Positions 1-40,129 of a stretch of 64,000 nt of DNA are shown in pieces. Position 1 is the first letter of the stretch. Each line of letters starts with the position of its first letter. A model generated the notes under the pieces. The model ran no database searches. It was not told the DNA's origin and was given only the letters and a program-made list of their open reading frames with translations. The stretch comes from Desulfitobacterium dichloroeliminans LMG P-21439. Lineage in GTDB: Bacteria > Bacillota > Desulfitobacteriia > Desulfitobacteriales > Desulfitobacteriaceae. Where the stretch lies: positions 2,704,001 through 2,768,000 of the forward strand of contig NC_019903.1 in the NCBI RefSeq assembly GCF_000243135.2. The letters are read 5' to 3'. The translations under genes were made by a program, and so were the position numbers.

Positions 1-45
1 GAGTACACATGGAGGTTATTTGAGCAAAAGAAGGCGAATATTTAA
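1..45 (+). CDS. 3' end of an unidentified ORF (partial)
   Basis: An open frame enters the window and ends at TAA 43-45, reading EYTWRLFEQKKANI. It lies 31 bp before the first attC-like site and points toward it, the usual arrangement of a cassette gene and its attC. Too short to identify; the call rests on frame and position only. Confidence 0.3.
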   Translation, partial: EYTWRLFEQKKANI

Positions 46-76: not shown

Positions 77-152
77 GTATAACAGAGGAGTCCCGCAACT
101 TGAGGATGATGAATGTGGTTGGGACGCTGCGGGACTCCCCAGAACGTTAGGC
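77..152 (+). repeat. attC-like recombination site 1
   Basis: A 76-bp imperfect inverted repeat. The left end is GTATAAC (77-83) and the right end GTTAGGC (146-152), a perfect match to the integron R' core GTTRRRY. An inner perfect 11-bp stem pairs GGAGTCCCGCA (87-97) with TGCGGGACTCC (128-138). Between the outer TAAC/GTTA pairing and the inner stem lies an unequal unpaired segment, as in the central spacer of attC hairpins, and about 30 nt form the terminal loop. Two more sites of exactly the same length occur at 1769 and 2542. No integrase gene is in the window. Confidence 0.65.
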
Positions 153-260
153 GAAATGTCCATTCCCAAGCATTGTTTTCCGTCTTACTTGTGCATGCAT
201 TTTTTTGTGCCTATGGTGTATGAGGATTATGAATGATAAAAGGCCCCCTAATTAGAGGAC

Positions 261-638
261 CTAGTCATTTCTTCCATATATTAATTCAAGTTCACTTACT
301 AAGTAATTAAAGCTGTTTTCATCCATCTTTATAATGTAATCGTCTGGTTTAACTACACTCACTAGATACTCATTAGAATATCTCAATAAAAATAGACCTT
401 TTACCCACGATGGCTTAGTAAAACCATTATTGCGCCAATTCAAAATTGGGATCTTGAATTGATCATGATAGGAGGGGGGATTGCTTGGAGGTTGAGAAGT
501 TGTTGATACTAAAATAAATAATTCATCTGCGTTACCACCAACAATTATTGCTGGTCTTCTTTTGCTACTATCTGGATCATCTTCAAATTCAACATCTAAC
601 CAAAAAATATCTCCAACATTAAAGTCCATTCTTATCAA
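261..638 (-). CDS. MazF/PemK-like type II toxin
   Basis: A 125-residue protein with the PemK/MazF N-terminal pattern: VGDIFWLDVEF near residues 8-18, then KRRPAIIV, the conserved beta-barrel segment of these mRNA interferases, which cleave cellular RNA when freed from antitoxin. The TTG at 638 is favoured by a GAGG 5 nt upstream and by direct abutment to the antitoxin stop; an ATG at 629 is an alternative. The pair forms a two-gene unit inside the first attC-bounded cassette, on the strand opposite to the cassette direction. The family call is by motif; target specificity cannot be told. Confidence 0.7.
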   Translation of the reverse strand: MIRMDFNVGDIFWLDVEFEDDPDSSKRRPAIIVGGNADELFILVSTTSQPPSNPPSYHDQFKIPILNWRNNGFTKPSWVKGLFLLRYSNEYLVSVVKPDDYIIKMDENSFNYLVSELELIYGRND

Positions 639-833
639 TCAATCCTCATAGATATAACGATGAGCGGGATTATTTTTGTCTAACAGTATTTTACCATCTT
701 TAATTTTAGGGCTTATAGTTATTTCCTTCAGTTTTTTGTCAGATAAAGACAAGCCTTTGTATGTTGTGTTTGCTTCTTTTTTTGCTAATGAAGGCATTTG
801 TCCACCCGCCTCTTGAGGATTATTCTTGTCCAT
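639..833 (-). CDS. Probable antitoxin partner of the MazF-like toxin
   Basis: A 64-residue, charged and lysine-rich protein immediately upstream of the PemK/MazF-like gene; its stop abuts the toxin start. The start has a strong GGAGGTGG 6 nt upstream. I do not recognise a DNA-binding fold: the N-terminal half is polar and probably disordered, and the C-terminal half (KLKEITISPKIKDGKILLD) is the likely toxin-binding part. Antitoxin identity is inferred from size, order and coupling, not from homology. Confidence 0.5.
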   Translation of the reverse strand: MDKNNPQEAGGQMPSLAKKEANTTYKGLSLSDKKLKEITISPKIKDGKILLDKNNPAHRYIYED

Positions 834-1009
834 ATCTTACCACCTCCATAGTTCGGTTACAAGACTCTATGTCTAGTTTTGCCAATTTAGAAGGGGATAA
901 TCGTTCGTGTGGATAATAATGTATATACTTGTGGAGAATTACCTGCAAGTTTATCCTTCGAAGCTGGACACTTCCCCTAACTAATTAGAGATTCATGATG
1001 TTCCTAGAC

Positions 1010-1489
1010 ACAGAAAAAGCCATTGATCAAAAATCAGCTTTCTCCTTGATGACGCCGTAATTTCGGCCGTTTTAAGGATTTTGATCAATTCATCCAAGCA
1101 TAAAAACGATACGGTATACCCTTTCTGAAGGGCTAGATAACCGAGGGCACTGGCCAAATGCGACTTCCCAACGCTTGGTGGTCCAAAAACATAATGTTAT
1201 AAGCCTGTTCAACCCATGTAAAGTCGGATAACCTGAGCATTTGTTCCTTGATTATACTTTGTTGAAAGCCAAAGTCGAATTCTTCTAGGGTCTTAAGTTG
1301 TGGCATACCTGATCGCTTGATTCTGCTCTCAGTAGCCTTTTGATCTTTAAGCCGAATCTGCTCGGACAGGAAAAGGCTTAGGCTTTCCAGCGGACTGTGT
1401 TCTCCTTGGAAAAGATTCTCGAATTCTACTTTTTCAAGATGGAGTGCTGTCAGCATTGATTCAATAGATTCCTTGGTTTTTGTCCTCAT
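1010..1489 (-). pseudogene. istB: IstB-like IS21 helper ATPase, frameshifted remnant
   Basis: The first 100 codons read like the start of IS21-family IstB, the AAA+ transposition helper (LEFDFGFQQSIIKEQMLRLSDF region). The frame then breaks at about 1188; in the adjacent frame the Walker A region continues as FGPPSVGKSHLASALGYLA. The product would stop after roughly 50 further residues, near 1010, so both the frameshift and the loss of the C-terminal half kill it. It overlaps the preceding istA stop by ATGA, the normal IS21 coupling. Its position inside an attC-bounded cassette suggests the IS landed in the cassette and decayed. Confidence 0.75.
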
Positions 1490-1585
1490 GATAGCCCACC
1501 AACCCGTTCATACTCCTTAATTGACCGCTTTTGAGTGATTACAGCTGCAGCCTTTGGATTGGTCAGGGTGTATTTTTTCAAGATG
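1486..1585 (-). pseudogene. istA: IstA C-terminal fragment (IS21 transposase)
   Basis: About 32 codons in frame before the istB ATGA overlap, ending in RSIKEYERVGGLS, resemble the C-terminus of IS21 IstA. The catalytic core is absent. Upstream, the sequence runs straight into short repeats of the type found at IS21 ends, suggesting an internal deletion that joined the left end to the tail of istA. Confidence 0.55.
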
Positions 1586-1587
1586 AT

Positions 1588-1646
1588 ACCGATCAATTTG
1601 TGGCCAAATTCCGATCAGTTTTGATGTCTGAAAACCGATCAATTTA
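1588..1646. repeat. Three short repeats, probable IS21-type end
   Basis: CCGATCA(A/G)TTT occurs at 1589, 1611 and 1635, spaced 22-24 bp. Spaced repeats of this kind are transposase-binding sites near IS21-family ends. Together with the istA tail and istB fragment they mark a decayed IS. Confidence 0.45.
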
Positions 1647-1768
1647 TTTTACCACTCACAACTTGTAAATTACGTCGCATTCATCCTATTTTATGATGCA
1701 GAAGTCTTAGCTTATGTTTAAGGCAGCGCCGTCCATGGCGCTGTCTGAATCTGGGGGCACAATACGTC

Positions 1769-1844
1769 ACATAACACGTCCATTCCCGCAACTTAGAAAA
1801 TATGAATGTAATATGACGCTGCGGGATTTCTCAGGACGTTATAT
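1769..1844 (+). repeat. attC-like recombination site 2
   Basis: 76 bp, the same length as sites 1 and 3. Left end ACATAAC; right end GTTATAT (1838-1844). The outer arms pair as ATAAC(A)CGTCC with GGACGTTAT (one bulged A); the inner arms pair CCCGC with GCGGG; an unpaired spacer separates them. It shares the GACGCTGCGGGA block with site 1. The right core deviates from strict GTTRRRY at the fifth base. Confidence 0.6.
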
Positions 1845-1878
1845 GAAAGTCGGCGAACAAAAAAGTAGCCAGTTAAGG

Positions 1879-2157
1879 CTACTTTGGTGGGAATACATCA
1901 TCGTGAGTACCGATGATATATAGTGTATTGATTTGATCGCTCGCTTCTATAGTTATTTCAATGATAATGCGTATCGACATATTGACACTGATCTCATAGA
2001 AGTTATCTGTCCCTTGAATTTTTTTGTATCGCAGCGATGGATGAGTTGGGTCAGACATGAATATCTCAATGGTTTTTTGAGCTTGCTTAAATGTTTTCGA
2101 GGTAAGTTGCTTAAATTGCTTATCAAACTTTCGAGTAGATCTAAAGCGCCTAGTCAT
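1879..2157 (-). CDS. RelE/ParE-superfamily toxin
   Basis: A 92-residue basic protein starting MTRRFRSTRKFDKQF, typical of RelE/StbE-type ribosome-dependent mRNA interferases; the middle LRYKKIQGTDNFYEISVN and the C-terminal YIIGTHDDVF are the usual RelE beta-sheet segments. The start overlaps the upstream antitoxin stop by 4 bp, so translation is coupled. It is the toxin of the pair in the second attC-bounded cassette and ends 35 bp from site 2. Family is clear by pattern; the subgroup is not. Confidence 0.8.
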   Translation of the reverse strand: MTRRFRSTRKFDKQFKQLTSKTFKQAQKTIEIFMSDPTHPSLRYKKIQGTDNFYEISVNMSIRIIIEITIEASDQINTLYIIGTHDDVFPPK

Positions 2158-2438
2158 TGCTCGATACCGTCAAGAAATTCGCGAATTGCACTAAACTCAC
2201 GAACATTACCTGATTCAACGTCATTTTTGGCTTCGAGCATATCTTTTTGGACTCTGTCAGACCAAAAGTATGCTTGATCGGAGGGGACTAGTTTCATAGG
2301 TTCAATGATAATTTTATTGTCATCCATCCTAATGTCGAGAACATCACCTTCAGAAATATTGAGTTTCTCTCTTATATCCCTTGGTAGGCTTATAAGGTTT
2401 CGTTTTTGAACGAAGACTCTACGGGAGATAGCGGCCAT
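2154..2438 (-). CDS. AbrB/MazE-type antitoxin
   Basis: About 94 residues. The N-terminal 45 form a SpoVT-AbrB swapped-hairpin DNA-binding domain (RNLISLPRDIREKLNISEGDVLDIRMDD); the acidic C-terminus would cap the RelE-like toxin. The ATG at 2438 is chosen because AAAGG lies 9 nt upstream; a GTG at 2447 is possible. Upstream, GTAATTAC and related palindromic sequence near 2476-2490 could be the autoregulatory operator. The gene sits 100 bp from attC-like site 3. Confidence 0.8.
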   Translation of the reverse strand: MAAISRRVFVQKRNLISLPRDIREKLNISEGDVLDIRMDDNKIIIEPMKLVPSDQAYFWSDRVQKDMLEAKNDVESGNVREFSAIREFLDGIEQ

Positions 2439-2541
2439 GAATATCACCCTTTCGGCTCTTTCTAATTACAGTATATGCGTAATTACGTAGTAATGCAAAT
2501 TAGCGAAATTAATCGGGTATTCCTATGGGGCGCCGACCACC

Positions 2542-2617
2542 AGATAACAGAGGAGTCTAGCAACTAGAGGATGATGCATGCGGTTGTGACGCTGCTGGAC
2601 TCCTCAGGACGTTATAT
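2542..2617 (+). repeat. attC-like recombination site 3
   Basis: 76 bp again. Left end AGATAAC (2542-2548), right end GTTATAT (2611-2617). The inner stem pairs GAGGAGTC-AGCA with TGCT-GACTCCTC with one mismatch. It closes the second cassette (about 1839-2611), whose only content is the RelE/AbrB pair. No further site of this type was found downstream. Confidence 0.65.
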
Positions 2618-4545: not shown

Positions 4546-5808
4546 TTATACCAGACATTTTTCATACACTCCCTTGTACGGATAGTTTTCCGACAACTTC
4601 ATGATTACATATCTTGCGGTTTTGATTATTTTTGCTGCAAGAAATACATACTTCAAACGAAAGGTCTTTATTTGCTGTCTGTATTCTGAAGAGTCCAAGG
4701 AATCAAACTTGAACAACAAAAATAGGTTATATGAAAGCATCATCATTTGAAACACGGCTTCATTCGCCCAAAATGACTTTAGCAAGAGATGACCCACCGC
4801 CATGTCGTATTTGGCTTCTTTGATATAGTTTTCAGCATTACCACGCTTTTCATAGTATATAACTACTTTTTCAGAAAGCAAGGTAGTATTTGTTACAAAG
4901 AAAAAGTAGTCGTATTCGGAACCTTCTAAAAGTGATAATTGTGCTCTTTCTTTTTCTGGTTTCAGTACGCGAGATACGACAAATCTTCTGTCTTTTTCCC
5001 ATTTAACTAATTTTGTATACAGTTCTGTAGTTTCTCTACCTTCTTCTCCTTTAACGAATACAATTGATGAATTCGTTGCTTGTGAGGTGAGTGTAGAATA
5101 ACTTTTGGCTTTAATTAAATATTTGCATCCAAGAGATTCTATCGTTTCGATAATTTTTTCATCAAAGTAGCCACTATCCATTCGAAATAAAATTTCTAAA
5201 TCGTCTGATTTGATGTTAGCAACAATTTCTTTGATCATTTCCGCAGCACCGTTTGCAGTGTAAGTATTGCCACTTCTTACAAATCCGGTAACATATGCTT
5301 TTAATTCGTCGCAAAATGCAAATTGGATATTGTAGCATCGGTTTCCCAGTTTCTTAGGATTATATCCTTTTGACGCACCTTCTTGATGACCTTCTACGTT
5401 AATTACACTACTATCAATATCAATCGTAATGGATGTCAATTTACTTTTAGTGAGCAGTTTTTTAAAGACTTTAAAATTAATGTCTCTAAACATTTGGGTT
5501 GTCTTGAAGTTGAAGTTTCCTAGAAACCGTGACACTGTTTCAGGTTCTTTTACGGAAATATCAAACTCGTTGACGAGGGGATCATTTTGAAGTAGCTTTA
5601 GACGTTCTAACTTATCAATGCCAATGAAGTGACCGCAGAGCATGGTCTTTATATGATTCATCTTGATTTTATTTGTTGAGTCATTATCAAATACGAGGTC
5701 ATTTTCAATAAAATCAAAAATCCCATTGCTTTTTGCATTCTCAAGGAGCAGAAAAAGACCTGCATTTGATGTTAGATTCTTAGCTTTGAAATCAATTTTA
5801 TTAATCAT
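4546..5808 (-). CDS. IS1380-family transposase
   Basis: 420 residues, intact. DDE transposase features of the IS1380 group are visible: TSITIDIDSSVINVEGHQEG (first Asp, residues about 130-150) with the KGYNPKK pattern, FRMDSGYFDEK (second Asp, about 210), and the YEKRGNAENYIKEAKYDM motif carrying the Glu (about 320). It catalyses cut-and-paste transposition of its own element. I could not find convincing terminal inverted repeats; the element probably spans about 4.45-5.95 kb. It sits between the CRP/FNR promoter and a truncated membrane gene. Confidence 0.85.
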   Translation of the reverse strand: MINKIDFKAKNLTSNAGLFLLLENAKSNGIFDFIENDLVFDNDSTNKIKMNHIKTMLCGHFIGIDKLERLKLLQNDPLVNEFDISVKEPETVSRFLGNFNFKTTQMFRDINFKVFKKLLTKSKLTSITIDIDSSVINVEGHQEGASKGYNPKKLGNRCYNIQFAFCDELKAYVTGFVRSGNTYTANGAAEMIKEIVANIKSDDLEILFRMDSGYFDEKIIETIESLGCKYLIKAKSYSTLTSQATNSSIVFVKGEEGRETTELYTKLVKWEKDRRFVVSRVLKPEKERAQLSLLEGSEYDYFFFVTNTTLLSEKVVIYYEKRGNAENYIKEAKYDMAVGHLLLKSFWANEAVFQMMMLSYNLFLLFKFDSLDSSEYRQQIKTFRLKYVFLAAKIIKTARYVIMKLSENYPYKGVYEKCLV

Positions 5809-6453: not shown

Positions 6454-9400
6454 TCACGCCGTTTGGATATCCTTATCTTGTTCTGCTAATTTTACAGAAA
6501 GAAGCTTGGATACACCGGACTCCTCCATGGAAATACCATAGAGCACATCGGCTGCTTCCATGGTTCCCTTACGGTGGGAGATGACCAAGAATTGAGTCGA
6601 ATTAGCTAAACGATGGACATATTGAGCGAAGCGGGTTACGTTGGCATCATCCAAGGAAGCTTCAATCTCATCAAGAATACAGAAGGGGCTAGGCTTCACT
6701 TTGAGCAAGGCAAAGAGCAAGCCAATAGCTGTGAGAGCCCGTTCTCCCCCGGACAACAGGGAAAGAAGCTGGGCTTTTTTACCGGGTGGCTGTGCGATAA
6801 TCTCTACCCCGGTCTCCAAAAGATTGTCTGGATCGACTAACCGTAGTTCGGCAAAGCCGCCGTTGAACAACTCCTTAAAGACCACTTGAAAGGCCTCATT
6901 GACTGCCGTAAACCCTTCTTGAAAGCGCTCGGACATGGTTTTATCCAATTCACCAATCAAGTCGTGGAGAGAGTCATTCGCCTCTTCGAGATCTTGTTTT
7001 TGCACAGATAAAAATACGAAGCGTTCTTGCAGCTTGGGGAACTCTTCGATGGCCGCCTGGTTCACAGGACCCAGCGATTCGAGCCGCTGTTTGATTTCTT
7101 GAACCCTGGCAGTCATCCCCCCTTGGCTTCGTTCAGTCTCGTAGGCTTGGGCTTCTTCCCAAGTTAAAGCAAATTCCTCTTGTAAGCGCTTATAACCGGT
7201 TTCCCACTCTGCATCCCAGCGTGCCAGCCGCACCTCTAAATTATGGAGCTTTTGCTCCAAGCCTTGCTGTTCTTGCCTTTGGTTTTGAGCTAGGCGTTCC
7301 TGTTCCATGAGCTCCTTGGATAGAATCTCACGCTCTTGACGCAAGGCAACCAGCCTTTCCTGAGCTTGCCGCTGCCTCTCTGCCGTTTCTTGGCGTTGGG
7401 CATCCCATTCCCTTTGCTCTTGGACTATACGGGCTTTCCCTACTTCTAATTCCATGAGATCCTGGCGTTTTTGCTCGAGGAGAAGGTTGTTCTCCAAGAG
7501 AAGGGCTTGTACTTCTTCGATGCGCTCTGTGGCTTGCTTAAGCTCTTGCTCCCACTTGGCCGCTTGAACCTTCGCTTGGGTTAAACTCTCTTGAAGCACC
7601 TCTAGCTCGCGACTTGCCTTTTGATTCTGCTCCTCTTGAAGGCTTAAGGCCCCTTGTGCTTCATGCAGGCGTGCTTTAAGTTGAAGCTGCTCCTCTTCTC
7701 TCCTTGTTTTCCGTCGGAGCAGTTCCTCACCCTCTTGATTCATTCCATCCAGACGATGGTTAAGGTCCGCGATTTCAGCCTTAAGGCGCTGAATTTGTTC
7801 ATGAAGATTAAGCTGGTGGGTTCTTAATACAGCTAAGCCGGATTTTAATTCTTGCTCTTCAGCGGCAAGGGCTTTGAGGCCTTCCTCTTGCTTCTGGATC
7901 TGGGTATTGAGTAGATTAATTTTCTCTTCAAGTTCTCGCAGCTGCCGACGTCGAGCTTCGCATTCCTGCTGTAGCTCCTGGAGCTCTCGAGATCGTCCCA
8001 AAATATTGGCACCTTTTCTCTGGTAACTACCACCGGTCAAAGAGCCACCCGGATGAACCTGATCACCTTCTAAGGTGACGATCCGAGCCCGATACCCAGA
8101 AGCGCGTGCCACGCGGGTCGCTGCCTCCATATCGCTAACAATGACGATTCTCCCCAGTTGGGATTCGAAAGCCTTACGATATTTCTCCTGAAATGTGATG
8201 AGATTTACTGCTAACCCGATAAATCCAGGATCGTTAGCAACCTCTTTCGCTACGTTCGTTTGCCCGCCTTGAATGACATCGAGGGGCAAAAACGTCGCAC
8301 GACCCAAATTATGGGTTTTTAGATAGTGAACAGCTTCTTTAGCACCTTTTTCCGTTTCGGTGACAATGTTCTGGATTCCCCCACCTAAGGCGACCTCAAT
8401 AGCCACCTCGTGTTGTTCTTCCACCTGTAGCAAATCGGCCAAGGTCCCACAAAGCTGTTGACAGGCTGCCACCCCTTTCTTCTTTGCTTGCATGAGCTCT
8501 CGAACGCCCCGTTGATACCCTTCCAAGGAATCTTCAAGATTCTTCAGAGCATGGTAGCGGGCCGATTTCTTTTCTAACTCGCCACTCCACTGGCGAAGCT
8601 CAATTTGCTTTACCCTGTTCTGCTCACGGAGTTGTGCCAAATCCCGCTGGATTTTCTCTAGCTCTTGTTGACTGGCTCGGTGCCGATCCTCTTGGACCTT
8701 GATCTGACCTAGGATAACCTCTTCCTCTTGCTCATAAGTAGCTTGACTTGATTCTTTATCCCTTTTTTCTCCAACCCATTGATTTTGACTTACGGTGAGA
8801 GCCTCAAATTGGTGCGTTACCCGGCTTAATTCTGCTGCTGATTCCGCAAGCTCTTTCTGAACTAAGGCTAGATTTTCCCTTAAAGTTTCCAACTCATCTA
8901 GCCCATTCTTCGCTTTCGCCTCGGCATACCGCTGCTCATCCTCTTGTAAAGTCTGATTGGACTCTTGGATGGTCTTGATGAGAAGGGATTTTCTACCCTC
9001 TACAGATCTTAGTTGTTCTGAGCTGCTATGAACCTTCTCTTCGTTATCCTTAACTTCCGTTGTAACACGGGAAATCTGCTCACCGAGATAACCTTCTCGT
9101 TCCTGACGAAGGCGTATCTCCTGGATGATTTCATTTATGGACTGATCGATGGCATAGGTATTTTCCTGTTGCTTTTGAATTTTCTCATCAGCTTGATTGA
9201 GATTAACCTTGCTATAGAGGATTTCGCTTTCCTTTTGGCTCAAGGCAGCCACCGTTGCAGCAATCGCCGCCTGGAGCTCCTCTGTCTCTTGGGCTGAAGA
9301 GGTGAGCCTGGTCCGCACCTCTTTAAGATCATGCGTAACGATCTCAATCTCGAGAGCTTTCTGTTCTGTAGTTAATTCAACTGCTTCTTTAGCGATGGCC

Positions 9401-10050
9401 GCTTGTTCTTCTAAGGGGCCTAGTTGTCCTTCGATTTCTACTAAGATATCCCTGATCCGTTCCAAGTTACGTTCTGTTTCATCCAAACGTTTAAGTGCTT
9501 CCCGTTTGCGCATTCTGTATTTGGTGATTCCTGAGGCTTCTTCTAGCATGGTTCGTCGATCTTCGGACTTTTGGTTTAGCAACTCCTCTACACGGCCTTG
9601 ACCAATGATGGAGAAGCCTTCTTTTCCAGCACCCGTATCCATAAAAAGCTCATGGATATCTTTTAGCCGGCAAGAGGAGCGATTAATAAAATACTGTCCT
9701 TCGCCATCACGATAGACTCTTCGCGTAATGACGACTTCCTGGTAATCCAGAGGAAATATTCCTGTGGTATTATCAAAAACCAAAGACACTTCCGCCATAC
9801 CGACGGGACGTCTCGCGTTGCTTCCCGCAAAAATGACATCTTCCATCTTGCTGCCGCGCAGGTTCTTGGCGCTCTGTTCCCCGAGCACCCAGCGAATCGC
9901 ATCCGCTACATTGCTCTTGCCGCTTCCATTGGGTCCGACGACGACACTCAAACCATGACCTAATTCTAACTTCACTCTGTCCGCAAAGGACTTAAACCCT
10001 TGGATCGTAATGGATTTCAAGAAAACAGGGAGAGCTGCGGCCTTAGCCAT
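6454..10050 (-). CDS. smc: Chromosome partition protein SMC
   Basis: About 1198 residues, normal for bacterial SMC, the ATP-driven DNA-loop-forming subunit that works with ScpA/ScpB in chromosome condensation and segregation. Order: N-terminal ATPase with Walker A GPNGSGKS (39-46), long coiled coil, hinge (about 510-680), return coiled coil rich in Gln/Glu/Lys/Arg, and C-terminal ATPase with signature LSGGERALTAI and Walker B CILDEIEASLDD. The start at 10050 is chosen for GGAGGAGA upstream; an ATG 21 nt earlier lacks a good site. It overlaps the 3' end of rnc by 8 bp, so the two are cotranscribed. Confidence 0.97.
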   Translation of the reverse strand: MAKAAALPVFLKSITIQGFKSFADRVKLELGHGLSVVVGPNGSGKSNVADAIRWVLGEQSAKNLRGSKMEDVIFAGSNARRPVGMAEVSLVFDNTTGIFPLDYQEVVITRRVYRDGEGQYFINRSSCRLKDIHELFMDTGAGKEGFSIIGQGRVEELLNQKSEDRRTMLEEASGITKYRMRKREALKRLDETERNLERIRDILVEIEGQLGPLEEQAAIAKEAVELTTEQKALEIEIVTHDLKEVRTRLTSSAQETEELQAAIAATVAALSQKESEILYSKVNLNQADEKIQKQQENTYAIDQSINEIIQEIRLRQEREGYLGEQISRVTTEVKDNEEKVHSSSEQLRSVEGRKSLLIKTIQESNQTLQEDEQRYAEAKAKNGLDELETLRENLALVQKELAESAAELSRVTHQFEALTVSQNQWVGEKRDKESSQATYEQEEEVILGQIKVQEDRHRASQQELEKIQRDLAQLREQNRVKQIELRQWSGELEKKSARYHALKNLEDSLEGYQRGVRELMQAKKKGVAACQQLCGTLADLLQVEEQHEVAIEVALGGGIQNIVTETEKGAKEAVHYLKTHNLGRATFLPLDVIQGGQTNVAKEVANDPGFIGLAVNLITFQEKYRKAFESQLGRIVIVSDMEAATRVARASGYRARIVTLEGDQVHPGGSLTGGSYQRKGANILGRSRELQELQQECEARRRQLRELEEKINLLNTQIQKQEEGLKALAAEEQELKSGLAVLRTHQLNLHEQIQRLKAEIADLNHRLDGMNQEGEELLRRKTRREEEQLQLKARLHEAQGALSLQEEQNQKASRELEVLQESLTQAKVQAAKWEQELKQATERIEEVQALLLENNLLLEQKRQDLMELEVGKARIVQEQREWDAQRQETAERQRQAQERLVALRQEREILSKELMEQERLAQNQRQEQQGLEQKLHNLEVRLARWDAEWETGYKRLQEEFALTWEEAQAYETERSQGGMTARVQEIKQRLESLGPVNQAAIEEFPKLQERFVFLSVQKQDLEEANDSLHDLIGELDKTMSERFQEGFTAVNEAFQVVFKELFNGGFAELRLVDPDNLLETGVEIIAQPPGKKAQLLSLLSGGERALTAIGLLFALLKVKPSPFCILDEIEASLDDANVTRFAQYVHRLANSTQFLVISHRKGTMEAADVLYGISMEESGVSKLLSVKLAEQDKDIQTA

Positions 10051-10831
10051 TATTCTCTCCTCCCATTTCATCTAGCACTTGTTGAGCAGCACGTTGCTCC
10101 GCTTCCTTTTTGGTGCGTCCGCTACCTTTTCCGCGCAGGCTCCCTTGCAGGTAGACTCCTGCTGTAAAGCGTTTATTATGGTCGGGACCTTCTTCGGCTA
10201 GGATGCGATAACTGACTTCTGTTTCTTCCCGTTGGGCCTTTTCCTGAAGCATGGTCTTATAATCTCCATAATTCCCTTGTGCCACTTCAGTGATTTCATC
10301 CTTCAACTGCGTCAGGATGACCCGTCTTGCTTCCTGAAAACCATATTGTAGATAAATAGCTCCTACCACTGCCTCCCACGCATCTGCTAAGATGGAAGGT
10401 CTTTCCCTACCGCCTGAGACTTGTTCACCTTTACCTAAAAGCAGTTCTTTTCCAAGCTGGATCTTTTTAGCCGTGCGGGCTAAAGTGCTCTCATTGACCA
10501 CCGCAGCCCGCATCTTGGTTAACTCCCCTTCGGGTCGTTCCGGATAACTCAGGTAAAGATACTCTGCTACCACAAAATCTAGGATCGCATCACCCAGAAA
10601 CTCCAGCCTTTGATTATTGTCCAGACCGGATTGTGGATTTTCAAACAAGTACGAAGGATGGGTCAAAGCGGTAGTTAACAAACGGTTAGGAGGTGTATCC
10701 AACTCCAACCGTTTTGCCAAATCAACGCCAGTGGGAATACGCTTCACGGAATCTGCATGATACTTATGGCGTATATTCCCATGGAGATTGTGCATTGACA
10801 CTTTTCCCGTGCCGTGTTGTTTCTTATCCAC
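10043..10831 (-). CDS. rnc: Ribonuclease III
   Basis: 262 residues. The RNase III catalytic domain (about 35-165) carries the signature RLEFLGDAILD, with the metal-binding Glu/Asp residues, and a later DAWEAVVGAIY; the C-terminal double-stranded RNA binding domain (about 190-258) ends in KKEAEQRAAQQVLDEM. It processes rRNA precursors and other duplex RNA. The first 30 residues are polar and longer than usual, so an internal start is possible. It lies between fabF and smc, the normal Firmicute order. Confidence 0.96.
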   Translation of the reverse strand: MDKKQHGTGKVSMHNLHGNIRHKYHADSVKRIPTGVDLAKRLELDTPPNRLLTTALTHPSYLFENPQSGLDNNQRLEFLGDAILDFVVAEYLYLSYPERPEGELTKMRAAVVNESTLARTAKKIQLGKELLLGKGEQVSGGRERPSILADAWEAVVGAIYLQYGFQEARRVILTQLKDEITEVAQGNYGDYKTMLQEKAQREETEVSYRILAEEGPDHNKRFTAGVYLQGSLRGKGSGRTKKEAEQRAAQQVLDEMGGENNG

Positions 10832-10852
10832 CGCTCATAACTCCTTACTCAC

Positions 10853-12091
10853 CTAGAACTTCTTCACTACAATTGTAGCATTATGTCCACCAAAACCAAA
10901 GGTATTTGATAAAGCTACTTTAACATCTTTCTGCCTTGCTTTATTCGGGACATAATCCAAATCGCATTCAGGGTCCGGCTCTCCATAGCTCATGGTCGGT
11001 GGAATCACCCCATTTTGAATTGTTAAAACGCAGGCGATAGCCTCGATAGCTCCTGCAGCACCAAGTAGATGCCCCGTCATCGATTTAGTGGAGCTAATCG
11101 CAACCTTTTGAGCGGCTTCTCCGAAAAGGGTCTTAATGGCCGCAGTTTCTGCCGCATCATTAGCGTTGGTACCTGTTCCATGGGCATTAATATAATCAAC
11201 AGCTTCCGGAAGGACTTGAGCCCCTTCCATGGCCACCTTCATGGACTGAATGGCTCCGATTCCACCCGGCGCCGGGGAGGTAATATGGTATGCATCACAG
11301 GTGCTGCCATAGCCGGAAAGCTCAGCATAAATCCTAGCTTGGCGCTTTTGCGCATGCTCTTCGGATTCCAGAACGAGAATACCGGCCCCTTCACCCATGA
11401 CGAATCCTGACCGTCTGGCATCAAAGGGGCGACAGGCCTCTTGAGGAAGGTCCTTCTCTGTAGACATGGCCTTCATGGCACAGAAGCCAGCAAAAGCCAG
11501 CGGAATGATCGGTGCTTCAGTTCCACCACAAACCACTAAATCCGCATAGCCATTTTCAATCAGCCGCATCCCTTCGCCAATGGCGTTCGTCGCCGAAGCG
11601 CAGGCCGTAGCCACGCTTAAGCTGGAGCCTTGGAAGCCAAACTCGATAGAAATATGACCCGCCGCCATGTTGGAAATCAGCATGGGGATAAAGAAGGGAC
11701 TAATTCTTCCTGGGCCTTTGGCCATAAGGACTTCCTTCTGTTGCTCAAGAGTAGTCACCCCGCCGACACCCGTTCCAACAATGACACTTGCTCTTGCCTT
11801 ATCCAGCTGATCTAAGTCAAGATCTGAATCTTTAACGGCCATTTTCGCTGCTGCCATTGCTAGTTGGGTGAAGCGGTCCATATGCCGGCTTTCTTTACGA
11901 TCCAACCAATCGGTAGGTTCAAAGTCTTTGACTTCGGCTGCTACTTTAGTAGGCATCTCACTGACATCAAATCGAGTCACTAAATCAATTCCAGATTGTC
12001 CCTTAATCAAACTTTCCCAGAACTTTTCTAAAGTACTGCCCACAGGGGAAACGACTCCCATTCCCGTTATTACCGCTCGCTTCTTATTCAT
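10853..12091 (-). CDS. fabF: 3-oxoacyl-ACP synthase II (KAS II)
   Basis: 412 residues, full length. Condenses malonyl-ACP with acyl-ACP in chain elongation. The Cys-His-His triad is visible: C164 in ATACASATN, H304 in INAHGTGT and H341 in MTGHLLGAAG; a GFGGHN motif lies near the end. The start has AAGGAGG upstream. Second gene of the fabK2-fabF-rnc-smc segment on the minus strand, 29 bp after the FabK-like gene. Confidence 0.97.
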   Translation of the reverse strand: MNKKRAVITGMGVVSPVGSTLEKFWESLIKGQSGIDLVTRFDVSEMPTKVAAEVKDFEPTDWLDRKESRHMDRFTQLAMAAAKMAVKDSDLDLDQLDKARASVIVGTGVGGVTTLEQQKEVLMAKGPGRISPFFIPMLISNMAAGHISIEFGFQGSSLSVATACASATNAIGEGMRLIENGYADLVVCGGTEAPIIPLAFAGFCAMKAMSTEKDLPQEACRPFDARRSGFVMGEGAGILVLESEEHAQKRQARIYAELSGYGSTCDAYHITSPAPGGIGAIQSMKVAMEGAQVLPEAVDYINAHGTGTNANDAAETAAIKTLFGEAAQKVAISSTKSMTGHLLGAAGAIEAIACVLTIQNGVIPPTMSYGEPDPECDLDYVPNKARQKDVKVALSNTFGFGGHNATIVVKKF

Positions 12092-19796: not shown

Positions 19797-22244
19797 TCAT
19801 TTTAGCTTCTGCTGAGCTCGAAAGAAATCTTGCCAAGGGTCAGCGCCGGCCATCCTCGCGAGCGCCTCCGCCATATCGATACCGTCTGGGGCAATCGTGT
19901 CAAGTTCATCCCAGTCGATAGGCATCGATACCTTAGCTCCTTTTCTTGTTCTTAAGGAATAGGGGGCAATGCTGGTAGCCCCTCTGCCGTTGCGAATCCA
20001 GTCGATAAATATTTTGCCTGCTCGCTTTGCCTTTCTAACATTGCTTGTATATCGGTCAGGCCATTTTTGCTCCATCACCTCGGCAACACCCCGAGCAAAG
20101 CTATAAAACACTTCCCAGGAAACGGAGGGTTCTAAAGGAACAACCACATGATAACCTTTGCCGCCGCTGGTCTTAAGATAGGCGTTCAGGGAAAGCTCAC
20201 TAAGAATACTTTTAACATCCCGCACCCCCTGACGCACCCTGCTTAGATCCATTCCTTCATCCGGATCTAGATCGAATACCATCAGATCAGGTTTTTCCAG
20301 TACCTCGATACGGCTTCCCCATGTATGAAATTCTAGCGTCCCCATCTGTGCTTCTGAAATAAGTCCCAGTTTGTTCTCAATATAGAAATAATCTTCAATT
20401 TCCCCACTGCCGGTGGTGATCGGAAGAGTGATGATTCCCTTGCTGTCCGGACCGGGATGCTTTTTATAGAAGCAAGTCTGCGAGATGCCCTTGGGACAGC
20501 GTACAATACTAAGGACTCGGTAACTTACATGGGGCAGCATACGTTCCGACACCATTTCGTAATAGCGGACCACATCCGCTTTTGAAATTTTAGGTTCTTC
20601 AAACATCACCTTATCCGGATTGGTAATTTTTATTCCAGCGATGACGATACTGTTGTCCTTTGTTACCATTTTGCTCTCCAATTCTTTTGGATTCTCCGCT
20701 TCTTGGGGACTATCTAATTCATTGATGGTCGTTTCTTTTTGGATATCCCGAGGATGCTTATCTGCCTGCAAGCCTTTAAAGCTTGCTTGCCTCAACCGCT
20801 GATCTTCTGTCCATTCAGCAAATTTAATTTCCGCGACCAGTTGAGGTTCAAGCCAAGTAATTCTTTCATTAGATCTTGCCTGGGGTGCTTCTTTGAAAGA
20901 CGGCTCCGCCTTGTGTAGGCTTCTGAAATGTTCCGCCAGCTTCTTTCTTTCACGTTCACTGAACCCCGTTCCGGCGCGTCCGCAATAGATGAAATCCTCG
21001 CCTTCATAGATTCCAAGCAGAAGCGAGCTTACTCCGCTGGTTTTTTTGTCGGATAGCGTATATCCCCCAATGACAAAATTCCGCCTTTGCTCACATTTCA
21101 GTTTGATCCAGTCCCCGTTTCTCGTTGACCTGTATAAGGAATCCATTCTTTTACCGATGATTCCCTCCAGACCTGCCTCACAGGCAGCAAGAAAGCTCTC
21201 CTTTCCCTTGCCGATAACATGTCGGCTGTAGTAAATGCTTCCGGGCGCATCCTTTAGCAAAGCTTCAAGGGCAGCTTTTCTGTCGATAAGGGGCCGTCCT
21301 CGCAGATCCATACCATCTAACGCCAGAAGATCAAAGACGATATAGGTTAAGCTTTGCTCCTGGGGGTTCTTCAGATAGTTTTGCAGCGCCTGGAAATCTG
21401 TCTTGCCCTCAGGATTCGTGATGGTCATTTCCCCATCGAGAATCATTGCCCTTCCGGCAGCCATAGTGATGAGGGCAGTAGCCACCCCTGAAAACCGTCT
21501 AGTATAATCATTGTCGTTCCTAGTCATCAACCGGACGCTATTGCCTTCCACAAACGCCAAAATCCGATAGCCGTCATACTTCAACTCATAAAGCCAATCC
21601 TCACCCACAGGAACCTTGGTTATCAGCTTGGCCAGTTGTACATCCGCTCTGTCAAAGGGGTTCCTTGTGATTTTTGTCTCGGCACCGGCTGCGATTTCTG
21701 ACATGGAGCGGTCGGTCCGGATGCTGGTGGTAAATGTGGCAATCCCTACTTCGTTTTTGGCATGTTCATCTTTTTCTTTCAACAAAAGCCAGTTATCCCT
21801 CGTCTCTCCGTCCTTCGATTTCAGCCGGACCAAGGCCCATTTTCCCTTAAGCCGTCTTCCGTGCAGAACGAACTTCAGGCTACCTTCAATCAGCCCTTCA
21901 TCCACATTGCCACGAGGCTCCCATAAGCCCTCATCCCAGAGCATGACCACGCCGCCACCATATTCGCCCTTGGGAATCATCCCCTCAAAGTTCCTGTATT
22001 CAAGAGGGTGATCCTCCACTTGGACAGCAAGCCTCTTGTCATGTGTATTATAGGAAGGACCCTTAGGTACAGCCCAACTCAAAAGAGCCCCCTGCCATTC
22101 CAAGCGCAAATCATAGTGGTCATTGCGGGCTAGATGGTGTTGGACAACAAATCTTAACTGCTCATCAGAATCTATTTTCCCTTCAGGCTCCAGCGTTTTA
22201 GTAAAATTTCTTTTTTCGTTGTATTCACTTAGCCGCCCCGTCAT
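19797..22244 (-). CDS. ligD: NHEJ DNA ligase LigD (phosphoesterase-ligase-polymerase)
   Basis: 815 residues, three domains in the order PE (about 20-165; HYDLRLEW and MIPKGEYGGG), ATP-dependent ligase (about 205-500; the adenylated Lys is K222 in YELKYDGYR), and archaeal-type primase/polymerase (about 535-810; VFDLDPDEGMD metal-binding Asp pair). It repairs double-strand breaks with Ku. This domain order matches the Pseudomonas type rather than the Bacillus LIG-POL type. It follows ku by 4 bp, so the two are one operon. Confidence 0.95.
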   Translation of the reverse strand: MTGRLSEYNEKRNFTKTLEPEGKIDSDEQLRFVVQHHLARNDHYDLRLEWQGALLSWAVPKGPSYNTHDKRLAVQVEDHPLEYRNFEGMIPKGEYGGGVVMLWDEGLWEPRGNVDEGLIEGSLKFVLHGRRLKGKWALVRLKSKDGETRDNWLLLKEKDEHAKNEVGIATFTTSIRTDRSMSEIAAGAETKITRNPFDRADVQLAKLITKVPVGEDWLYELKYDGYRILAFVEGNSVRLMTRNDNDYTRRFSGVATALITMAAGRAMILDGEMTITNPEGKTDFQALQNYLKNPQEQSLTYIVFDLLALDGMDLRGRPLIDRKAALEALLKDAPGSIYYSRHVIGKGKESFLAACEAGLEGIIGKRMDSLYRSTRNGDWIKLKCEQRRNFVIGGYTLSDKKTSGVSSLLLGIYEGEDFIYCGRAGTGFSERERKKLAEHFRSLHKAEPSFKEAPQARSNERITWLEPQLVAEIKFAEWTEDQRLRQASFKGLQADKHPRDIQKETTINELDSPQEAENPKELESKMVTKDNSIVIAGIKITNPDKVMFEEPKISKADVVRYYEMVSERMLPHVSYRVLSIVRCPKGISQTCFYKKHPGPDSKGIITLPITTGSGEIEDYFYIENKLGLISEAQMGTLEFHTWGSRIEVLEKPDLMVFDLDPDEGMDLSRVRQGVRDVKSILSELSLNAYLKTSGGKGYHVVVPLEPSVSWEVFYSFARGVAEVMEQKWPDRYTSNVRKAKRAGKIFIDWIRNGRGATSIAPYSLRTRKGAKVSMPIDWDELDTIAPDGIDMAEALARMAGADPWQDFFRAQQKLK

Positions 22245-22248
22245 AAAC

Positions 22249-23022
22249 TTACGCTAATTCCTTGACTTTTTGGGCTTTATCGACGCTGGCCCTGAGGGCT
22301 TCCATCAGGTCGATGACTTTTCCGGTGTTGCCAGCCTCCGCTGCAACGACCTCCTTGCCGGAGATTTTTGACTCGATGAGCATGCGAAGTTTTTCTTGGT
22401 ATTCATCCTTATATTGGGTGGGGTCAAAGGGTGTGTCCATGGCATTGATCAGCATTTTTGCCATAGTGAGTTCCTGCTCCGATATATCCGGTTTCGAATA
22501 CTGTTTTTGCAACTCTTTAATATCTTCAGCATAGAACATCGTGGCAATGAGGATTCCATCTTCCCGGGGGATAATCGCCATCAAAGTATCCTTTGTGCCC
22601 ATGACAGTTTTCCCAATGGCAATTTTCTGTTCGTTCATCAGCGCGGCACGTAACAGCTCGAAGGCTTTTTCACCCCCTGCCTCAGGTGCAGCCTGATAGG
22701 TTTTATTATAATAGACGGGAGAAATCTGGTTCAATTCGGCAAAATGCAGAATCTGGATAGATTTTTCTTTTTCAGTCTTAATCTTTTCGATTTCTTCTTC
22801 GGTAACGACAACATACTTACCATCATCATACTCGTACCCTTTGACAATGTCTTTCGCGGTTATTTCCTTGTCGCAATGAGCGCAGGTTTTTTTATACCGT
22901 ATACGACTTTTGTCTTCCTTATGTAGTTGATTAAAATGAATATCATTGTCTTGGGTAGCTGTGTACATGGCGATGGGAATCGCGACCATGCCGAATGTGA
23001 TTACTGATTTACGCGAGATCAT
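22249..23022 (-). CDS. ku: Ku homodimer, NHEJ DNA end-binding protein
   Basis: 257 residues, normal for bacterial Ku. N-terminal beta-barrel starting RKSVITFGMVAIPI, with HFNQLHKEDKSRIRYKKTCAHCDKEI cut by the usual CxxC (AHC-K). The C-terminus is basic (KAQKVKELA) and recruits LigD. GGAGGTG lies 8 nt before the ATG. Coupled to ligD downstream. Confidence 0.96.
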   Translation of the reverse strand: MISRKSVITFGMVAIPIAMYTATQDNDIHFNQLHKEDKSRIRYKKTCAHCDKEITAKDIVKGYEYDDGKYVVVTEEEIEKIKTEKEKSIQILHFAELNQISPVYYNKTYQAAPEAGGEKAFELLRAALMNEQKIAIGKTVMGTKDTLMAIIPREDGILIATMFYAEDIKELQKQYSKPDISEQELTMAKMLINAMDTPFDPTQYKDEYQEKLRMLIESKISGKEVVAAEAGNTGKVIDLMEALRASVDKAQKVKELA

Positions 23023-26011: not shown

Positions 26012-28057
26012 TTATATCTCTTCTGTAAGAATTTGATGTACAGGAGATCCCTCAGACTGAGCCGGTAAGCGAACGCCGCTCAGAAAGGCCATTGTCGGCG
26101 CAATATCCACCTGACGAATAACCCGTTCAGTTTGATAACCCTTTTTAATCCCCGGTCCGGCCGCAACAAAAATTGGTGAAAGAGAGGAATCCGCATATCC
26201 ATTTTGGGTTGATAAAGAGTCCGCGTGAATAACATTGAAAGACTCTTCTTTAAAATAGATAATATCGCCACACTCAGGTCCACTAAGACCAATAATTACA
26301 GCATCCTTATTACGCATGGCCAGTGCCACAACTCGTTTGCCGGTTTTGTGATCACGGTATTGATATAAATCAGAGATAATCTGGGTTTCCAAATCGTATT
26401 GGTCTTTAGGGTCAACGATTCCGTGCTCATCCCGACCGATCAAATTGAGATAAATATGATTGCCACGACTGGCCACGGCTTTTGTATTCGCCCAATCAAA
26501 TTCGTGATTGCCGTTCTCATCCGTAATGATTTTGCTATAACCAAGTTCCTCCATTACCTGTGTAGTGATTCCACCTGCCTCACCCAATTCCACACCATGG
26601 TTTTCCTGACAACTCAAGCCATGATCCGAAGTGACAATAATGGTCCAACCTTCATCTAGATAGGGCAGGAATCTTCCGAGATAGTTATCCGTTTGAATAT
26701 ACATTCTCTCAATAAATGCCTTATAAGCTTCTTCATTATTTTGCCACGTCTCCTGGTGCTTAGCAAAATGCCAGAACAAATGGCCGCCATTATCAACATT
26801 ATGCAAATGAGAATAAATGACGTCGTACGTATTCTTCTTCATAAAATAGGTCAAACAATCGGCCTGCCACTGACTATAGTGGTCCCAAGTTGGAATAAAT
26901 ACTTTGTCTACAAGGATTTCGTTAGCGCCATTGACGACCGGCCTGTTGGGAACAAACCCGATATTATCGATAACTTCCTTATACAGACTCTTCGGGTGGA
27001 ATAAATCATCCCGGCTTATATCTAATGCCATGCCAATCAGCATCGTGACTTCTGAACCGTCAGGCTTAATCGTTAAAAGATGGTAGTTTCTGTTACAATG
27101 GATATTTTCCCCTTCATCATTCTTGATGGTATCCACTACGTCATAAACCGATTTTCCTACTTCAATGGTCGCAATAGGTTTTGAGTCTTTCTTTGATTTA
27201 TAAACTTCAACCGTATCATAAATACCTTGTTCGTTTTTCAAAAGCAACACTGGGCGGCGATCCAAGCCTTTTCCCAAGGTAATCGTAAATTCCTTAGCAC
27301 CCTCAGGTGCGTTTGCCCAACCTGTGGCTTCTTTGATTGGAGACTTTACTGTATCCGCAATCATTTTGGCCAAAACATTGATTTCATTTTCTCCTTCACA
27401 AGTAACAATATTTTTGATCACTTTTGCACCGCTTGATATGGCTGCTCTTAGATAGCTAACTTCCCCGTCATCTTCAAGTAATTCTTCCACATTCTCAATA
27501 ATACAACCGGCGCCAGGCGTAATCGTAGAAGTATTGGGCAAGAATTGTGCCTCAGCAAATTTATCTGAAGCAATTACTATTTTGGAAATATCTACCCCGG
27601 CAATTCCAGTATTAATGGTCTGGGGCTGAGTACCATCAACCACATGAAGATTGGGGCTATCTGAAGTGGCTGGCCATGAGCTCCCCGGCCAATGCCATAC
27701 TAATGTCTTTTTGTTCGCCTCTTCAGCGTAAATATTCCACAGGGGTTCGGCTTTGGATCGTCTAGAGTCCAAGTTATAGACCAAACTATCTAAATGGCCA
27801 TGATTGTGTCCAAAGAAGCAGGTAATACCATGAGTTCCTGGGTAGGCACCGGTAGCTAAGGTCGTCCATAGGGTTGGAGTCACAGTTGGCATTGCCCCCA
27901 ATAAAACCATATCTTCGCGGCTAGAACCCCTTTCTATGAACTTTTGCAGATTGGGCATTTTGCCTTGGTCCAAATATTTCTTCGCCAGCCTTGGCTCAAA
28001 ACCATCTACTCCAATAACTGCGATCTTTTCTGTTAAAGCTTTCCTCTTCATTTTCAT
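26012..28057 (-). CDS. Alkaline phosphatase-superfamily phosphodiesterase/hydrolase, paralogue 1
   Basis: 681 residues, no signal peptide or membrane helix, so cytoplasmic. Type I phosphodiesterase/nucleotide pyrophosphatase fold: VIGVDGF (first metal Asp), TVTPTLWTTLATG (nucleophile Thr region, near 60), later HLHNVDNGGHLFWHF and SDHGLSCQENHG (metal ligands). Substrate unknown: a phosphate/phosphonate mono- or diester or a sulfate ester is possible. Closely similar throughout to the 38075 protein. Its promoter has the same LysR-type site as the tct operon 5 kb away, linking it to that transporter. Start ATG has AAAGGATGAT upstream. Confidence 0.85.
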   Translation of the reverse strand: MKMKRKALTEKIAVIGVDGFEPRLAKKYLDQGKMPNLQKFIERGSSREDMVLLGAMPTVTPTLWTTLATGAYPGTHGITCFFGHNHGHLDSLVYNLDSRRSKAEPLWNIYAEEANKKTLVWHWPGSSWPATSDSPNLHVVDGTQPQTINTGIAGVDISKIVIASDKFAEAQFLPNTSTITPGAGCIIENVEELLEDDGEVSYLRAAISSGAKVIKNIVTCEGENEINVLAKMIADTVKSPIKEATGWANAPEGAKEFTITLGKGLDRRPVLLLKNEQGIYDTVEVYKSKKDSKPIATIEVGKSVYDVVDTIKNDEGENIHCNRNYHLLTIKPDGSEVTMLIGMALDISRDDLFHPKSLYKEVIDNIGFVPNRPVVNGANEILVDKVFIPTWDHYSQWQADCLTYFMKKNTYDVIYSHLHNVDNGGHLFWHFAKHQETWQNNEEAYKAFIERMYIQTDNYLGRFLPYLDEGWTIIVTSDHGLSCQENHGVELGEAGGITTQVMEELGYSKIITDENGNHEFDWANTKAVASRGNHIYLNLIGRDEHGIVDPKDQYDLETQIISDLYQYRDHKTGKRVVALAMRNKDAVIIGLSGPECGDIIYFKEESFNVIHADSLSTQNGYADSSLSPIFVAAGPGIKKGYQTERVIRQVDIAPTMAFLSGVRLPAQSEGSPVHQILTEEI

Positions 28058-38074: not shown

Positions 38075-40129
38075 TTATTCGGAAATGATTTGGTAGATCG
38101 GTGCACCTTCACACTGAGCCGGTACTCTCACGCCGGTGAGCAGGGCAATGGTGGGGGCCACATCAGCCTGTCTGATCACACGTTCCGTGACACAATTTTC
38201 TTTGATGCCGCGGCCGGCAGCCACAAAGATTGGGGAAACGGAAGTATCGGCATATCCCCATTGGGTGGAAAGTGAATCAGCGTGAATTTTATTGAAGCCT
38301 TCTTCCGTGAAATAAACGATATCGCCGCATTGTTCACCACCCATGCCAAAGTGTACTGCATCTTTATTGCGTACTGCTACCGAGATAACCCGGCGGCCAC
38401 TATGGGGATCGCGGTAGTTATACAGATCTGAAATAATCTGAGTTTCCAGTTCATACTTGTCGGCGGGGTCCACAATACCATGAGGGTTTCTTCCCTTGAG
38501 GTTGATATAGATATGATCGCCGCGGATCGCGATGGCTCTGGTTTTGGTCCAGTCAATTTCTTTGGTATCGTTACCGTTTTCATCCTTAACCATGACGGTA
38601 TACCCTAATTCAGCCATTACAGGAACATTAACCCCGTGAATCTCACCGAGAATTACCCCGTGATATTCTTGGGTAAGCAAACCATGATCGGAGGTAATGA
38701 TAATGGTCCAGCCCTGATCAAGGAAGGGCAAAAATTGGCTTAGATAGCGATCTGTCTGGCAGTATGCTTCTTCCTGGAATTGCTGGTAAGCAAGCTCATT
38801 ATTGTCCTTCCATTCTTCCTGCTTACAAGCGTAATGCCAGAAATAATGTCCTACTCCGTCCAGGTTATGAAGGTGAGAGAAGATAATATCATACTTGTCA
38901 TGCTTCATAAAATAGGTCAGACACGCTGCCTGCCAAGCACAGTAATTGTCCCAAGAGGGGAGCATGGTCTCACGCACCAGTACTTCGTTGGAACCGTTGA
39001 CCCGGAAATTCACCGGAACATTGCCGATGTTCTCCACGACTTCCTTATATAAGCTTTTGGGATGGAAGTAATCATCACGCCCAACCTGAGAAGCATTATT
39101 GATAATGATATTGAATTTTGAACCGTCCTCGGCTAGATCCAGCAACTGATAATTACGGTTGCAGGGAACATCAGCTCCCTCATCATTTTTGACCGTGTCG
39201 CTGACATCAAAGCAGATCTCTCCTTTTTTCAGGGTCAGGTAAGAAGCACTTGCCTTTTTGGATTTATAGAGTTGAATCGTATCATAGACTCCTAGCTCGT
39301 TTGGCACGATTAGGCCAGGGCGTCGTTCTAAACCATTAGATACAAAGAAAGTAAATTCCTTGGCCTGTGCCGGTGCCTGAGCCCAGCCTTCGGCAGGTTT
39401 AATCGCCGCTTTAATGGTATCGCAAATCATATTACCCAGGGCTTCAATTTCGCATTCGTCTTGCTCCGTAATACTAAATTGAAAACCTTTGGCATTATTA
39501 CCGGCCGCAATTACTTTACGAAATACAGATGTCTCTGCCTGTGCTCCTTCTTCCATCAAGTCTGCAGCATTGTCAATAATGCAGCCTTGGCCCGGGGCGA
39601 CATGGGAGGTATTGGGCAGGTATTGGCTGGAAGCAATTTTCTCAGAGCCGGTGATTACTTTCAGGATATCCAAAAAGGGGATTCCATTGTTGATCCCTGA
39701 AGGCTGGGTGCCGTCAACGACATGAAGGTTCGGGCTATCTGAGGTCGGAGGCCAAGAAGATCCAGGCCAGTGCCAGACTAAGGTCTTCTTCCCAGCTTCT
39801 TCAGCAAAGACATTCCACAAAGGCTCAGCTTTTGATTTACGGGAATCTAAATTATAGTACATTGTGTCAATATTCACAGGATCGGATGCAAAGAAACAAG
39901 TAATGCCATGGGTTCCGGGATTCGCACCCGTGGCCAAAGTTGTCCAGAGGGGTGGAGTTACTGTTGGCATTGCTCCTAAGAGTACTAAATCTTCTCTGGC
40001 TGACCCTTTGCGTGTGAATTCTTTCAAGGCAGGCATTTTTCCCTGATCCATGAATTTCTTGGCTAATCTAGGGTCAAAGCCATCGACACCGAGAACAATT
40101 ACTTTCTCAGTTAATGCTTTTTGTTTCAT
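38075..40129 (-). CDS. Alkaline phosphatase-superfamily phosphodiesterase/hydrolase, paralogue 2
   Basis: 684 residues, cytoplasmic (no signal). Same motifs as paralogue 1: VLGVDGF, TVTPPLWTTLATG, FSHLHNLDGVGHYFWHY and SDHGLLTQEYHG. Nearly colinear with it, differing mainly in the 105-115 and 190-230 regions. It leads an operon with the thioredoxin-like gene, the TRAP permease and the TAXI protein, and is divergent from its own LysR gene. A parallel hydrolase-transporter module with probably a related but different substrate. Confidence 0.85.
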   Translation of the reverse strand: MKQKALTEKVIVLGVDGFDPRLAKKFMDQGKMPALKEFTRKGSAREDLVLLGAMPTVTPPLWTTLATGANPGTHGITCFFASDPVNIDTMYYNLDSRKSKAEPLWNVFAEEAGKKTLVWHWPGSSWPPTSDSPNLHVVDGTQPSGINNGIPFLDILKVITGSEKIASSQYLPNTSHVAPGQGCIIDNAADLMEEGAQAETSVFRKVIAAGNNAKGFQFSITEQDECEIEALGNMICDTIKAAIKPAEGWAQAPAQAKEFTFFVSNGLERRPGLIVPNELGVYDTIQLYKSKKASASYLTLKKGEICFDVSDTVKNDEGADVPCNRNYQLLDLAEDGSKFNIIINNASQVGRDDYFHPKSLYKEVVENIGNVPVNFRVNGSNEVLVRETMLPSWDNYCAWQAACLTYFMKHDKYDIIFSHLHNLDGVGHYFWHYACKQEEWKDNNELAYQQFQEEAYCQTDRYLSQFLPFLDQGWTIIITSDHGLLTQEYHGVILGEIHGVNVPVMAELGYTVMVKDENGNDTKEIDWTKTRAIAIRGDHIYINLKGRNPHGIVDPADKYELETQIISDLYNYRDPHSGRRVISVAVRNKDAVHFGMGGEQCGDIVYFTEEGFNKIHADSLSTQWGYADTSVSPIFVAAGRGIKENCVTERVIRQADVAPTIALLTGVRVPAQCEGAPIYQIISE

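Follow-up and report, generated by a model that had tools for sequence, protein, structure and literature searches.

Do the three 76-bp inverted repeats at the left end of a segment of the Desulfitobacterium dichloroeliminans chromosome belong to an integron and, if so, which recombinase served them? The window, i.e., the whole stretch of 64 kb analyzed here, comprises positions 2,704,001-2,768,000 of the single 3.62-Mb contig. An earlier note, made from the sequence alone, read the repeats as the end of an integron-type cassette array. Our analysis indicates that the window very probably contains the remaining end of a chromosomal integron that has decayed, the intact form of which would use a head recombinase other than IntI.

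attC sites and cassettes of the window

The positions, the length of 76 bp, the ends and the inner stem given for the three repeats in the earlier note were all confirmed by direct reading. The sites share TAAC...GTTA ends, the inner stem and the block GACGCTGC, and the stem contains an asymmetric inner loop. Site 1 ends in GTTAGGC, the perfect GTTRRRY reported before; the other two sites both terminate in GTTATAT. A simple scan for ungapped stems overlooked bulged sites, and covariance models were used instead. To keep the test non-circular, model R2 was built from 26 sites that came exclusively from other genera. In a search of both strands of the window it recovered exactly three sites, full length and on the plus strand, and no match beyond these was found up to E = 10 (Table 1). 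An Rfam scan of the window gave no family over threshold.

Table 1. Features of the array and of related loci (positions in the window unless a locus is named; R1 and R2, covariance models)
Feature	Position	Strand	Basis
HNH-endonuclease gene, 3' end	1..45	+	Frame crosses window edge, TAA at 43-45; HNH_2 PF13391 over cut-off
attC site 1	77..152	+	76 bp; predicted crossover G^TT at 146; R2 E 6.1e-16; R1 93.5 bits
Cassette between crossovers 1 and 2	147..1838	+	Crossover positions, gene families
PemK/MazF-like toxin gene	261..638	-	PF02452 20.8 bits, slightly below cut-off 23.1
Small gene upstream of toxin, presumed antitoxin	639..833	-	Open reading frame, position alone
istB (IS21 helper ATPase) fragment	1133..1489	-	Partial NF038214/PF01695 matches
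attC site 2	1769..1844	+	76 bp; predicted crossover at 1838; R2 E 5.2e-11; R1 74.9 bits
Cassette between crossovers 2 and 3	1839..2611	+	Crossover positions
Putative RelE/ParE-like toxin gene	1879..2157	-	Partner and sequence look; frame overlaps antitoxin gene
AbrB/MazE-family antitoxin gene	2154..2447	-	TIGR01439 42.4 bits vs cut-off 28.3; PF04014
attC site 3, last site of the array	2542..2617	+	76 bp; predicted crossover at 2611; R2 E 1.5e-14; R1 87.3 bits
IS110-family-like elements	L093:11097-12311, L094:5441-6655, L092:10511-11725, L091, L095, L088

Covariation was found in both sets of sites. Among 11 sites from the same genome, 22 cells carried a two-sided change with the pairing kept, compared to 9.1 after shuffling, and 10 of 19 stem pairs had compensated changes. 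The 26 sites of other genera had 69 compensated cells, compared to 21.9 after shuffling and 4-12 when the partner was slid, and compensation was seen at 14 of the 21 pairs. Judged from these counts the attC stem is under selection. In most sites the folding of the bottom strand equaled or surpassed that of the top strand. An A.C mismatch within the stem was kept in 36 of 37 attC sites (columns 22/52 of alignment A8 and 24/54 of alignment A1) and may, by analogy with the extrahelical bases of classical attC sites, act as a strand marker.

The repeats have the R''/R' boxes, the GTT core and the conservation of structure over sequence that are expected of attC sites, and several co-oriented copies each close a cassette of usually one or two genes. 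The array proposed in the earlier note is supported, since all three sites match R2 and their stems covary. The end of the array, which it placed in the window, was found at site 3.

The HNH-endonuclease gene is the last gene in the cassette closed by site 1 and lies mostly to the left of the window (L021:16360-18000). Both complete cassettes carry reversed toxin-antitoxin-like gene pairs. In the first of these, a PemK/MazF-like toxin gene and its small partner are accompanied by the istB fragment; in the second, an AbrB/MazE-type antitoxin gene has a RelE/ParE-like partner. The family search gave no match for the small partner of the PemK/MazF-like toxin, nor for the RelE/ParE-like gene.

The second of these cassettes has homologues in the arrays of two other species, with 90% identity in G004 (L085:5660-6499) and 77% in G021 (L103). 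Its homology is bounded by the crossovers, as expected if the cassette is the unit of exchange; it starts at the attC end and ends a few bases beyond the next G^TT. Across arrays from different species, 214 ends of homology were examined, and 36 of them lay no more than 8 nt from a predicted crossover, compared to a mean of 3.2 and a maximum of 12 in 500 randomisations. These comparisons indicate that cassettes are exchanged between species at the predicted crossovers.

Beyond the array, an IS1380-family transposase gene (4546-5808) is located between the array and smc. By their sequence look, neighboring genes at 19797-23022 resemble those for two proteins of non-homologous end joining, Ku and ATP-dependent DNA ligase D. 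Two similar genes of ~680 aa, at 26012-28057 (start KALTEKIAVIGVDGFEPRLAKK) and 38075-40129 (start KALTEKVIVLGVDGFDPRLAKK), represent a local duplication.

Other sites in the genome and the lost integrase

A covariance model search of the whole genome (G000) gave 17 attC sites at E up to 1. A second, main array with at least 12 sites was found from ~725.6 to 742 kb, 2 Mb from the window. It includes long variants of 124-167 nt in which ends and core are unchanged. Isolated single copies were located at G000:C1:392499, 766203 and 849074 (392.5, 766.2, and 849.1 kb), and these are perhaps off-target cassette insertions. Such single copies would also be expected if the 76-bp repeats were a dispersed element, MITE-like or terminator-like, and not recombination sites. 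We give this reading a negligible chance, as 14 of the 17 sites lie in two arrays, each in one direction, as site lengths span 75-167 nt with constant ends, and as homology breaks coincide with crossovers.

Whether the integrase lay left of position 1 or had been lost was left undecided in the earlier note. The loss was borne out. To the left of the window, at a distance of ~4.3 kb (L021:13601-13761, genome 2,699,601-2,699,761), we found a relic consisting of the 3' end of an integrase gene and an attI, with 78% identity to the corresponding region of the head recombinase gene of G004. The 5' flank of the gene is retained at L021:13434-13533, and nearly all in between is deleted. Since attI and a deletion scar are left, the window array once had an integrase of its own, which has since been lost. 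An IS21 copy (istA/istB, L021:14086-16397) is located between the relic attI and the HNH gene. A search of the genome with the IntI model gave no match over the cut-off, and no gene of the head type was left at E 1e-70. A 4-kb stretch with at least two attC sites, in a genome that lacks an integrase, corresponds to the clusters of attC sites lacking integron integrases (CALINs), and by its sequence the window array is such an integrase-less integron remnant. Because the integrase is deleted, the array would be mobile only with an integrase supplied in trans.

The main array contains an inserted element of the IS91 family (L019:4802-6305, G000 726.8-728.3 kb) that encodes a tyrosine recombinase of its own; flanked by an attC site on either side, it mimics an intI-attI arrangement. 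This recombinase (L019:5427-6305, minus strand, 79 bp from attC) was considered as the integrase, as the layout resembles intI-attI-array and the protein scores 177 bits on TIGR02249. Its gene, however, overlaps the IS91 transposase gene and is an insert between two attC sites, its close homologues are inconsistently found at array heads, and it belongs to a clade of its own with IS91-type enzymes (98/90). Plausible by layout, the candidate was ruled out by gene context and tree, and we consider it most unlikely to be the integrase. This recombinase was also seen near sites in other genomes of the family. Tyrosine recombinases other than the head type, IS91-associated ones among them, are located near some attC sites, which counts against the head recombinase as the integrase.

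Head recombinases in the class

Of the 46 genomes of the family, 39 contain attC sites; for the whole class the figure is 54 of 83. The largest set, with 63 sites, was found in G004. None of the nine genomes of family f4 had sites. The view in the earlier note that integrons are rare in Firmicutes does not hold for cassette arrays in this class, where they are common. As to a second G004 array at the smc locus, no match to smc or ftsY was present in the stretch examined.

In ten genomes (G001, G004, G015, G017, G049, G050, G052, G053, G055, and G057) a recombinase of ~365 aa (usually 360-384) is encoded immediately upstream of an array and in the same direction. The gene is intact in G055 (G055:C1:3325714-3326793) and G050. 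It carries a frameshift in G004, its G052 copy is truncated, and IS elements separate it from its array in G017. No co-directional attC site was found upstream of it in any of the ten loci. At E 1e-70 no integrase of this type was found in some genomes with big arrays, e.g., G021, and given this absence and the frameshift in G004, the link to every array is indirect. In most heads an attI is located at +72 to +112 from the integrase stop, and in one at +202. It consists of paired CCGCAAC-N-TGCGG-type motifs, followed in most by RACG^TTA, which holds the same ACGTTA core as attC; the strict core was unmatched in G004, G015, G050, and G057. The attI is thus found beside the integrase gene in the relatives, and as a relic in D. 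dichloroeliminans. A pattern search, which is a weak test, gave no LexA-type SOS box upstream of the integrase in the ten heads.

The catalytic residues R, K, H-x-x-R, H, and Y were invariant in an alignment of 12 sequences, and the core is that of a tyrosine recombinase as in IntI. The best PDB sequence match was IntI4 (2a3v, E 6.7e-41). The head integrases differ from IntI in scoring 207-224 bits on TIGR02249, below the cut-off of 265, compared to 410-523 for three true IntI, and in lacking an insertion of ~42 residues, as 24 residues are found where IntI4 has 66. By this alignment the head integrase is devoid of the additional (I2) domain specific to IntI. In a tree of 53 rows the Firmicute head integrases (100/99), IntI (98/90) and the IS91-associated recombinases (98/90) formed separate clades. 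On NF040815 (XerA_Arch, cut-off 220 bits) five of six head-type integrases scored 226-240 and the sixth, L158, 219.3; this XerA-type model covers neither the N-terminal domain nor attC arrays.

None of the 83 class genomes had an IntI over the TIGR02249 cut-off in a search that recovered IntI in three of three positive controls; if the cognate integrase is not IntI, such a search is unable to find it. A canonical IntI integron could have seeded the arrays and IntI then been lost everywhere, with the Xer-like head gene as a bystander. CALINs of such origin are known and few integrons are described in Firmicutes (PMC9024848), but the absence of IntI from all 83 genomes and the recurrence of the Xer-like gene at the array head, in line and with its own attI that carries the attC core, make this improbable. 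It is far less probable still that cassette movement at folded sites is the work of host XerC/XerD, in the manner of CTX phage and with no dedicated integrase. Xer enzymes are able to use a folded single-strand site (PMC4792948); against their acting here stand the dedicated divergent recombinase with conserved attI at array heads, and the f4 genomes, which surely have Xer and lack sites in all nine.

We also observed IS110-family-like elements with a 404-aa transposase repeatedly at ~240 bp before attC and in the same orientation, as if targeting the site (Table 1). IS1111-attC elements are known to target attC sites.

Relatives, proposed mechanism, and implications

Full-length relatives of the integrase, including its N-terminal domain, were found in Bacteroidota and a few other phyla. 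In a calibrated generic hairpin scan of the same strand there were 47 sites in 101.7 kb downstream of these relatives whereas the 156 kb upstream had 8. For control recombinases that lack the N-terminal domain, the two sides did not differ (32 sites in 212.6 kb and 33 in 231.8 kb). Many of the sites downstream of the non-Firmicute relatives were ~127-130 nt long. The Firmicute attC model matched Flavobacterium sites (E 7.6e-6 and 1.9e-5) and gave no site on three canonical integron loci. At L204 (Bacteroidetes GWF2_41_31), five hairpin sites of ~129 nt at 7687-11875 are located downstream of a recombinase that matches without the N-terminal domain and falls inside the Bacteroidota clade.

Modeled alone, the N-terminal domain adopted a beta-beta-alpha-beta-beta-alpha-beta fold (mean pLDDT 83). 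Its top match by profile and by Foldseek was the SMARCAL1 HARP domain (4o66, E 0.11 and 0.088, below significance). VIA-align gave UvsW as best (Z 7.4) and XPB at Z 5-6, also below significance, and no HARP was among the matches listed in the Pfam search. In SMARCAL1, UvsW, and XPB the domains concerned recognize substrate; the weak, top-ranked resemblance extends to sequence and fold, whereas no helicase is present here and the similarity stays below significance. Jointly, the resemblances are a lead toward recognition of branched or hairpin DNA.

As suggested by the relatives, the intact integron would consist of the recombinase gene, an attI ~70-110 bp past its stop and co-directional cassettes, each closed by an attC of ~76 nt, or longer in a few cases. 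The substrate of the Xer/XerA-like recombinase would most likely be single-stranded attC DNA folded into its hairpin, which the enzyme would join at G^TT to attI or to another attC. As in classical integrons, capture of cassettes would take place at the attI end, and cassettes could also be cut out or rearranged. The N-terminal domain may read the hairpin or its single-strand/double-strand junction and would then stand in for I2. In D. dichloroeliminans the integrase gene was deleted from this arrangement, leaving attI and the scar. Such elements may be termed a patchless integron class, with an integrase that lacks the I2 domain and presumably recombines these sites. We consider it slightly more probable than not that there is a second and phylogenetically separate class of integrons in Firmicutes and Bacteroidota, the I2-less integrase of which would read the folded attC through its HARP-like N-terminal domain.

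The arrangement shares with sedentary chromosomal integrons of the superintegron type, e.g., that of Vibrio, an attI with long one-direction arrays, cassettes of ~1 kb, structured attC sites with GTT cores, toxin-antitoxin cassettes and cassettes common to several species. It differs from these in its integrase, a non-IntI enzyme with an extra domain at its N-terminus and no additional (I2) domain; the integrase gene is transcribed along the array direction and has attI on its 3' side. The window and main arrays resemble CALINs in being attC clusters with no integrase, but attI and the integrase deletion scar remain here, and the integrase that is missing belongs to another class.

Integrons are described as nearly absent from Firmicutes; a survey from 2022 listed only a single complete integron for this phylum, that of Limnochorda pilosa (PMC9024848). 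Integron integrases are defined by the additional domain, which has been described as necessary, and Escudero et al. posed the chicken-and-egg paradox of which arose first, the I2 domain or the attC sites (PMC4792948). In open PMC text, as distinct from subscription papers and preprints, we found no description of integrases that lack the IntI domain and are associated with attC arrays.

Altogether, these observations indicate that most of a Firmicute class has cassette arrays, attI and a dedicated integrase without the domain described as necessary. Integron finders that require IntI would class such arrays as integrase-less clusters or overlook them. The finding bears on integron origins and makes the question of attC first or I2 first testable. 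If the second class of integrons considered above is real, structured single-strand sites would have been adopted without I2, either independently or before I2 arose.
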